From Actinotalea endophytica (GTDB lineage: Bacteria > Actinomycetota > Actinomycetes > Actinomycetales > Cellulomonadaceae), in the NCBI RefSeq assembly GCF_025717005.1, contig NZ_JAOVZU010000001.1:248001-312000 (forward strand): 64,000 nt of DNA, in the 5' to 3' direction. Under the pieces are notes generated by a model that was not told the DNA's origin, did not search any database, and saw only the letters and a program-made list of their open reading frames with translations. Below, in pieces: positions 34,150-36,244 of this stretch; within the stretch, counting starts at the first letter, position 1; every line of letters starts with the position of its first letter. The translations under genes were made by a program, and so were the position numbers.

Positions 34150-34671
34150 ATGAGCGAGATCACGCCGGACACCAAGGACTGGACGTGGGTGCTGCAGCAG
34201 CCCTGTCCCGAGTGCGGGTTCGTCGCCGCCGACCTGCCGGGCGACGAGGTGCCGGCCGTCGTCGCGGAGTCGCTGCCGCGCTGGGTCATGGCGCTCGCGC
34301 GGCCCGATGCCCGTGAGCGTCCGCGGCCGGACGTCTGGTCGGTGCTGGAGTACGCGTGCCACGTGCGCGACGTGTTCCGGATCTTCGACGAGCGGCTGCA
34401 CCTCATGCTCGACGAGGACTCCCCCACGTTCGCCAACTGGGACCAGGACGCCACCGCGGTCAGCGAGCGCTACGGCGAGCAGGACCCCGTGGTCGTCAGC
34501 GGAGAGCTCGTCGAGGCGGGCCGCACGGTCGCGCACTCGTTCGCGACCGTGCCCGACGACGCGTGGGGCCGGGTCGGGCTCCGCAGCAACGGCTCGCAGT
34601 TCACCGTCGAGACGCTCGGCCAGTACTTCGTGCACGACCTCGTGCACCACCTCCGTGACGTGGACGCATAG
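34150..34671 (+). CDS. DinB-like / mycothiol-dependent-type four-helix protein
   Basis: A 173-residue protein of the DinB superfamily. Metal-ligand histidines are His71 (YACHVRD), His162 and His166 (FVHDLVHH), spaced as in DinB/maleylpyruvate-isomerase proteins. A CPEC motif at residues 19-22 is unusual and might bind zinc. Family members in actinobacteria include mycothiol-dependent transferases and isomerases; the reaction here is unknown. GGAGA precedes the ATG. The gene is divergent from the TetR regulator and is followed by a 730-bp gene-free stretch. Confidence 0.82.
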   Translation: MSEITPDTKDWTWVLQQPCPECGFVAADLPGDEVPAVVAESLPRWVMALARPDARERPRPDVWSVLEYACHVRDVFRIFDERLHLMLDEDSPTFANWDQDATAVSERYGEQDPVVVSGELVEAGRTVAHSFATVPDDAWGRVGLRSNGSQFTVETLGQYFVHDLVHHLRDVDA

Positions 34672-34769
34672 CAGGCGGGTGACTCCGTCGTGCACAAATT
34701 TCGTGCACAGGGGTGTGCATCTCGGCCGTTTCCGCAGGTCGAACTGTGGACGACGTTGTGACTAACTCT

Positions 34770-35195
34770 TGGTGCGAAATTGGTCTCCGGAAGGCCTTGC
34801 AGCCCCCTCCGAGGCGGGACTAGAACTAAGTCATCGGCAAGGACGGATCGTCGGACCGAACGGGGAGACCCGGGAGGTTCCAGCCGGGGCAACCCGGAGG
34901 GAACGGCGGACCGGACCTACCGGCCCGGTCGGAGACCGGCGAACCTGCTTGGTGGGGCAACCTGCCGGGCATCTGGTGAGGCAACTCGCCGGGCTGTGGA
35001 TGACGACGCAGGGTTCGTACGGACCGTTTCGGGTTTGTTGTCGCTGGGCCACCAGCTCGCGGTTCGCCGTGGAGCGACGGGTTCGCCGCATCGTCAGAGC
35101 GGGGCCGACGTGATCGGGTAAAACCGGACTCGTCAGAGGTCGCGGCACACAGCAAGGCCCCTCAGACGCTTACTCTGAGGGGCCTTTGCTGTGCC
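34770..35195 (+). ncRNA. Candidate structured non-coding RNA with GNRA-capped hairpins
   Basis: Four short stems are capped by GNRA tetraloops: CGGG-GAGA-CCCG (34861-34872), CCGGG-GCAA-CCCGG (34884-34897), GGTGGG-GCAA-CCTGCC (34951-34966) and GGTGAG-GCAA-CTCGCC (34975-34990). CCGGTC-GGA-GACCGG (from 34925) and a GTCGCT...AGCGAC stem (35040-35078) add to these. A terminator hairpin follows at 35148-35193. Possible promoters are TCGAAC-N18-TAACTC (34739-34768) or TTGCAG-N18-TAGAAC (34797-34826), so the 5' end is uncertain. It lacks the conserved cores of RNase P RNA and tmRNA. A relation to the actinobacterial Ms1/6S-like RNAs is possible but unproved. Confidence 0.5.
35148..35193 (+). terminator. 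Very strong hairpin terminator
   Basis: The left arm 35148-35166 (CACAGCAAGGCCCCTCAGA) pairs with the right arm 35174-35193 with a single bulged T, around a CGCTTAC loop. No coding gene ends nearby on the plus strand, which supports a non-coding transcript. Confidence 0.85.
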
Positions 35196-35401
35196 CCCAG
35201 AGTACGGGCGGACGGTGAGCGGACCGTGTCCGACACGCGGGGGTCGAGTGAACAGATCCCACCACTGGCGCCGTCGGTCGGCGCGCGTCGCGGCTGCCGC
35301 ACGATCCGGGGATCCGTCGGCAGGACGTCACCCGGCAGGGTCCCTCGACGGGACGTCACACCGGGTCCGTCGGCAGGACGTTGCGCGACGTCGCTCGGCG
35401 G

Positions 35402-36139
35402 TCAGCCGCAGCCGAGGATCGACGAGCCCGCCACGAGGATCACCGGGCTGTCCGGCGAGTCGTCCTCGGCCCAGTAGAACAGGGACCTCGCGCCGGTACC
35501 GGTGACCTCGACCTGGAACACCTGGTAGTTGTCCAGCAGCTCGGCGGGCTGGGCGCCGGGGAGGGCCGTGACATCCGACCACGGCGAACCGATCGTGACG
35601 TCCTGCGGGAGCCCGATCCGGTACGGCACGGGCTCGGCCTGGGTCACCGTCCAGGAGAAGAGCGCGTCCGCCAGGACGTTGATGACCACGCCGCCGTAGC
35701 TGAGCTGGTCCACGTCCGCGACGCCGCAGGTCTCCGGGAACGGGTCGACGCTGGCCGGCGTGCCGAGCAGTGCCGTGATCGCCTCGGTGGCGTCCGGGGC
35801 GTCCCACGCGATGTCGCCGACGCCGTCGGCGCTCAGCTCGACCGGTGCGTCGTCGGCCGAGCCCGCCAGCGGGGCGGGGGCCATGCCCGGGTCCGTGGTC
35901 CCGGTGCCGTCGCCGTCAGCCGCGCCGCTCGACGAGCCGCCGTCGGTCGACGAGCCGCCGTCGGTCGACGAGCCGGCACCGTCCGAGGATCCGCTGTCGC
36001 TCGAGGACCCGGGGGCGCTGCTCGTCGTGGAGGTCGCGCCGTCCGTCGCGATCCCGTCGACCGACGCGGGCCCGTCGTTCGCGCAGCCGCTCACCGCGAG
36101 CGCCAGCGCGAACGTGGCGACGAGGGCGGTGCGCCGCAT
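35402..36139 (-). CDS. Secreted lipoprotein with Ser/Asp/Gly linker
   Basis: A 245-residue lipoprotein: signal peptide with lipobox LAVSGC (Cys19), a low-complexity Ser/Gly/Asp/Thr linker (about 30-95, with repeated SSTDGG), then a compact domain with Cys residues (FPETCGVADVDQLSYGG and a C-terminal LGCG) likely joined by a disulfide. I do not recognise the domain. It is attached to the outer face of the membrane. GGAAGG stands six bases before the ATG. It stands alone and converges on the candidate RNA region. Confidence 0.82.
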   Translation of the reverse strand: MRRTALVATFALALAVSGCANDGPASVDGIATDGATSTTSSAPGSSSDSGSSDGAGSSTDGGSSTDGGSSSGAADGDGTGTTDPGMAPAPLAGSADDAPVELSADGVGDIAWDAPDATEAITALLGTPASVDPFPETCGVADVDQLSYGGVVINVLADALFSWTVTQAEPVPYRIGLPQDVTIGSPWSDVTALPGAQPAELLDNYQVFQVEVTGTGARSLFYWAEDDSPDSPVILVAGSSILGCG

Positions 36140-36244
36140 ACAGAGCCTTCCGACAAGTGCCCTTCCACTGTGGCACAGGGGTGGGTCCGTCATGCGTCCG
36201 CCAGGAGTCACGGTTGTGACACGGACCTGTGCGAATCGACGGCC

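Follow-up and report, generated by a model that had tools for sequence, protein, structure and literature searches.

A structured RNA gene downstream of a DnaA-box-like cluster in Actinotalea endophytica and its relatives, most likely of a new class

The window, a 64,000-nucleotide stretch of the Actinotalea endophytica genome, belongs to a 4.25 Mb assembly split into 20 contigs and contains a conserved unit that is flanked on one side by a DinB_2 gene (34150-34671) and on the other by an opposite-strand gene (35402-36211). The unit starts with a cluster of DnaA-box-like sites at 34688-34765, which is followed by a promoter at 34797-34826 and then by an RNA of about 363 nt that terminates with a strong hairpin. 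The individual features are:

34688-34696, + strand: DnaA-box-like site 1
34701-34709, + strand: DnaA-box-like site 2
34714-34722, - strand: DnaA-box-like site 3, weak
34745-34753, - strand: DnaA-box-like site 4, TCGTCCACA
34757-34765, - strand: DnaA-box-like site 5
34797-34802, + strand: -35 element TTGCAG; TTG unchanged across all 24 aligned loci; missed by the generic scan
34821-34826, + strand: -10 element TAGAAC, separated from the -35 element by an 18 nt spacer; TA.A..T invariant in 24 of 24 aligned loci
34833-35195, + strand: putative structured non-coding RNA, about 363 nt long when its start is placed according to the promoter; supported by conservation in 23 aligned loci, a fold z of -3.85 and covariation
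34861-34872, + strand: first GNRA hairpin, CGGG-GAGA-CCCG; double changes at 201-212 of alignment A1
34884-34897, + strand: second GNRA hairpin, CCGGG-GCAA-CCCGG; seen in the sequence and in the GNRA count against shuffles
34924-35033, + strand: conserved core; core model match and pair counts
35148-35195, + strand: near-perfect 3' hairpin, presumed terminator

A generic promoter and terminator scan of the region returned neither a sigma-70 consensus promoter nor a T-tailed terminator, so that both the promoter and the 3' end rest on conservation. The initial annotation had proposed an RNA extending from 34770 to 35195 with a terminator at 35148-35193. Since 34797-34826 is the promoter, the start has to be moved from 34770 to near 34833; the hairpin at the other end is present as described and strong, but few T residues follow it. 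The locus is most likely a standalone gene for a structured non-coding RNA with its own sigma-A-type promoter.

All four of the GNRA-capped stems that had been noted previously, at 34861, 34884, 34951 and 34975, are found in the sequence, and the duplicated hairpin sits within the conserved core. Here a stem formed by 34940-34944 and 35013-35017 encloses GNRA hairpins together with a further hairpin, CTGTG...CGCAG. Between 34834 and 35195 there are two strict Watson-Crick 4-bp GNRA stems, whereas 1000 dinucleotide shuffles average 0.10 and three of them reach two; the stems at 34951 and 34975 require G-U pairs and so fall outside this count. Nowhere else in the window, on either strand, do two strict GNRA stems occur within 130 nt. 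The fold of 34764-35200 is also better than that of shuffled sequences (z -3.85), with one shuffle in 100 being equally good.

A DNA-similarity search gave matches in 23 of 59 genomes, including the window's own, some of which are to the 3' hairpin alone. Alignment A1 contains 23 loci from 19 genomes and omits L014, L021, L022, L023, L024, L028 and L030, where L024 is a second assembly copy of L005, and L028 and L030 are the same places as L008 and L007. Across these 23 loci the number of GNRA hairpins (GAGA, GCAA, GCGA) varies and the core remains constant. L014 was added in alignment A2, whilst alignment A3 omits L011, L015, L016 and L019 of the 23. In the core junction structure, which was drawn on 19 of the 23 loci, 92.1% of cells are paired, a value that falls to at most 40.2% when the pairing partner is slid along the 19-locus alignment. 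Both partners have changed in 16 of its 30 pairs, where shuffles give 6.0 ± 1.6.

The earlier proposal to look for covariation in relatives was borne out in a larger set. Alignment A5 is a selection of the matches, made up of 37 chosen loci plus L029. Among 38 sequences, 37 of which are independent of the drawing of the structure, compensatory changes on both sides are seen in 18 of 21 core pairs, compared with 11.2 ± 1.8 after shuffling, and the covariation score is 0.444, as against 0.180 in shuffles and no more than 0.105 when slid. Many of the 37 test sequences were picked up by the core model, a route biased towards sequences that agree with it; twelve (L123, L130, L135, L138, L143, L154, L156, L163, L165, L167, L169 and L170) came from a sequence-only box-and-promoter model, with their core coordinates still taken from the core model. 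Covariation and a promoter conserved at a fixed place together lend strong support to the prediction of a folded RNA, some 360 nt in length, that ends in a 3' hairpin of its own. A long-range stem that would close the 3' domain gained no support with wide windows, where 2014 of 5000 permutations did as well (21 of 23 sequences), and weak support with narrow windows, where 38 of 5000 did (23 sequences, several of them mis-anchored); this stem is omitted from the structure model. A pairing of boxes 1-2 with boxes 4-5 suggested by RNAalifold was also discarded: the paired sequences precede the inferred start, and the pairing arises from the inverted orientation of the boxes.

With respect to identity, the Rfam covariance models, those for 6S, 6C, RNase P and tmRNA among them, gave no match at threshold in the window, and a tRNA and tmRNA search of the window found none. 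When the region was taken up to E 10, six matches appeared, all below threshold and none to a 6S-type family. The loci of 20 relatives yielded two tRNAs only, leaving the RNA itself without a family at threshold. The stems had been described as unexplained by any gene, and this view holds: open frames overlap the region, but none is kept against the homologues L002 and L003. The gaps relative to L002 are 1, 2 and 2 nt and those relative to L003 are 1, 24, 2, 1 and 1 nt, and because they are not multiples of three a coding gene is rejected; mismatches by frame are 13/18/22 (L002) and 15/16/25 (L003), a mild third-position excess.

The initial annotation had offered two guesses, a homologue of Ms1 or 6S-like RNAs and a new class. 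Ms1 is marked by a neighbouring HAD-IB hydrolase gene. None of 14 genomes has such a neighbour beside the RNA, the HAD-IB genes above the cut-off lying at least 101 kb away in 13 of them and on another contig in the window's own; two sub-threshold HAD matches occur about 11-12 kb from the RNA, in G151 and G087. Comparison of the RNA with the DNA of 14 HAD-IB loci showed no similarity beyond E 0.07. Ms1 forms a long hairpin with a central bubble, as described in PMC4191392, whereas the present RNA, judged against that description, has a multi-hairpin junction fold with covariation. The length is similar, and PMC9130861 reports Ms1 for Cellulomonas, Actinotalea and Oerskovia, the named genera nearest to the window. 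Nonetheless, the different neighbours, the different layout, the lack of similarity and the absence of an Rfam match have led to rejection of this identity, and homology to Ms1 or 6S RNA is considered very improbable. Separately, loci L108, L111 and L118 have a conserved stretch adjoining the HAD-IB gene (L118 is 82.6% identical to L108 over 172 nt), which could be the Ms1 gene there. The second guess fits the data, and the RNA most likely represents a new class of structured non-coding RNA, broadly kept and absent from Rfam 15. No description of it was found in the open-access literature; as its novelty is gauged from that literature and Rfam 15, an earlier description elsewhere is possible.

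The distribution of the unit was followed with two models, the box-and-promoter model (R1) and the RNA core model (R2). R1 matches, some of the weaker of which are partial, occur in 185 of the 200 family genomes searched (22 of 25 genera), in 80 of 248 from the order (32 of 86 genera) and in 52 of 296 from the class (27 of 115 genera). R2 matches are found in 127 of 200 family genomes (17 of 25 genera), 15 of 248 in the order and 10 of 296 in the class. The promoter and the hairpin type were also recognised on reading loci of families f38, f13, f17 and f54, and at the f13 loci that were read the RNA is around 0.6-0.75 kb and mostly missed by R2. A subset of the genome-search matches was checked for both parts. 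Of 49 R2-found loci, 46 are preceded on the same strand by an R1 match of at least 44 bits; of 55 R1-found loci, 36 are followed on the same strand by an R2 match with E ≤ 0.003. For R2-found loci outside the set used to build R1, R1 is directly upstream in 36 of 39.

The two parts can nevertheless be separated. Three f39 loci (L198, L203 and L207) lack a box cluster while retaining the promoter, core and hairpin, which indicates that any control by DnaA is not obligatory, whilst at L021 (G018) the boxes are followed directly by the 3' hairpin, the RNA body being absent, and a core match lies elsewhere on that contig, at a distance of about 31 kb. That boxes and RNA usually occur together but are separable points to a function of the RNA as such and makes strict DnaA control less likely. 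Two further loci are unusual: L014 (G048) has at 440-830 two tandem box clusters, the first without a promoter, ahead of a long RNA variant, and L173 has at 1883-1968 a tRNA gene immediately 3' of what may be a divergent copy of the unit. The box-free f39 loci, along with the standalone gene and its sigma-A-type promoter, would suit an RNA whose partner is a general machine, for example RNA polymerase or the ribosome, and whose promoter receives the boxes as one incidental input; other actinobacterial RNAs do bind RNA polymerase (PMC11077062). However, boxes ahead of 46 of the 49 core-found loci examined are too constant for an incidental input, and this explanation is regarded as rather unlikely.

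The DnaA-box-like cluster was absent from the initial annotation. At its five sites the letters TNCAC, TNCACA, TGTG, TGTGNA and TGTG are invariant with fixed spacing in all 24 aligned loci, and gaps never fall inside sites 1-3 or sites 4-5. A DnaA-box matrix, seeded with a consensus and trained on ten dnaA-dnaN regions, gives 5.1 matches per 100 nt on both strands in the 24 clusters, compared with 0.20 over roughly 250 kb of surrounding sequence, a 25-fold enrichment. In the window's own copy, only TCGTCCACA at 34745-34753 scores like the boxes of dnaA-dnaN regions; four of the five matrix matches score 7.1-9.6, where the lowest dnaA-dnaN box scores 10.5, and site 3 is below the cut-off. Inverted boxes lie 12 and 10 nt apart in the dnaA-dnaN regions of G017 and G030; in the cluster, the distance between sites 4 and 5 is 12 nt. 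As at DnaA-box cluster loci (datA, D78 and the Bacillus clusters), several boxes, here recognised by sequence match, are crowded into a short stretch, and the cluster may be bound by DnaA.

The unit lies within 2.4-18.5% of genome length (106-709 kb) of dnaA, on either arm, at 34 loci in 33 genomes. This count took 33 of 37 genomes, setting aside G076 (place not listed) and the partial matches in G235, G243 and G248; it includes a partial match for G036 and the core's place for G031, and many of the genome lengths are rounded. The unit is on the leading strand at 25 of the 34 loci and on the lagging strand at nine. For the copy in the window, the distance to dnaA is about 121 kb. A second copy occurs 33 kb further on in the same genome, outside the window, at C1:315528-315825 between an integrase gene and a GNAT gene; its boxes, promoter, core and 3' hairpin span C1:315528-316060 (L092:5529-6060). 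A DinB homologue is present in 10 of 16 fetched neighbourhoods (two of those being second copies). The cluster was considered as a chromosomal origin and rejected, for it is not between dnaA and dnaN, it lies about 121 kb from dnaA, and no skew switch is seen near 34.7 kb in a window across which GC skew is weak.

It could be that the DNA is what matters, with the cluster serving, in the manner of E. coli datA or Streptomyces D78, as a site near oriC for the titration or inactivation of DnaA and the RNA gene as a transcription unit whose passage tunes DnaA occupancy. The rigid geometry of the boxes, their nearness to dnaA and the boxes of L021 without an RNA body all speak for such a role, and at E. 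coli datA read-through transcription from a tRNA operon is described as tuning the site (PMC10950094). Against this, the RNA fold covaries and the three f39 loci keep the RNA without the boxes; a titration site is considered unlikely.

The preferred reading is of a DnaA-responsive structured RNA that acts in trans, a proposal drawn from sequence comparisons that we regard as evenly balanced between right and wrong. Transcription would begin at the gene's own sigma-A-type promoter and stop at the strong hairpin. DnaA, positioned on the rigid five-site array that is present in most genomes, would activate or modulate the promoter; simple blocking appears less likely because the array, at about -68 to -145 of the inferred start, is located upstream of the -35 element. 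As the gene is on the oriC side, its copy number would rise early after initiation, and the array and this position together imply that RNA output would follow the DnaA state and replication initiation. The folded RNA may then act in trans, probably holding a protein through its GNRA hairpins and core, with the effect of tuning growth or the cell cycle. Strict coupling to DnaA is opposed by the box-free f39 loci, the RNA-free L021 and the mostly weak boxes of the window's own copy, and the nine lagging-strand loci and the long f13 RNAs that mostly escape the core model also count against a DnaA-responsive RNA. A more ambitious version, possible but offered only tentatively, is of a replication-clock RNA in several actinobacterial families, where DnaA on an oriC-like array would drive an oriC-side gene for a structured RNA; the level of this RNA would report initiation and the DnaA state, and the RNA would in turn act back in trans on initiation, growth or division.

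The usual upstream partner of the RNA resembles a binding site for the replication initiator, which offers a concrete candidate for an actinobacterial RNA regulator connected with DnaA activity and suggests that RNA output may be tied to DNA replication. Several known systems have some of these elements. D78 of Streptomyces is a cluster of DnaA boxes and, like datA in E. coli, is found on the origin side of the chromosome; the present cluster differs in that a conserved promoter and a structured RNA are coupled to it. In Bacillus subtilis, DnaA boxes at the promoter of sda, a small protein gene that they immediately precede, couple replication to another process, and here too DnaA-box-like sites precede a small gene, although its product would be RNA rather than protein. 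Ms1/MTS2823 and 6S share with it a standalone gene for an RNA of about 300 nt with a sigma-A-type promoter, Ms1/MTS2823 likewise in actinobacteria, but have other neighbours and another fold, and their models do not match. In the available part of a survey of 104 RNA motifs DnaA is unmentioned (PMC2864571). The closest printed idea found is CcnA of Caulobacter crescentus, a non-coding RNA that is linked to the replication origin and has a cell-cycle regulator binding at its promoter (PMC8959179). Compared by description, CcnA lies within the origin and has CtrA boxes, whereas the present RNA is encoded 106-709 kb from dnaA in the 33 genomes measured and has DnaA-box-like sites.
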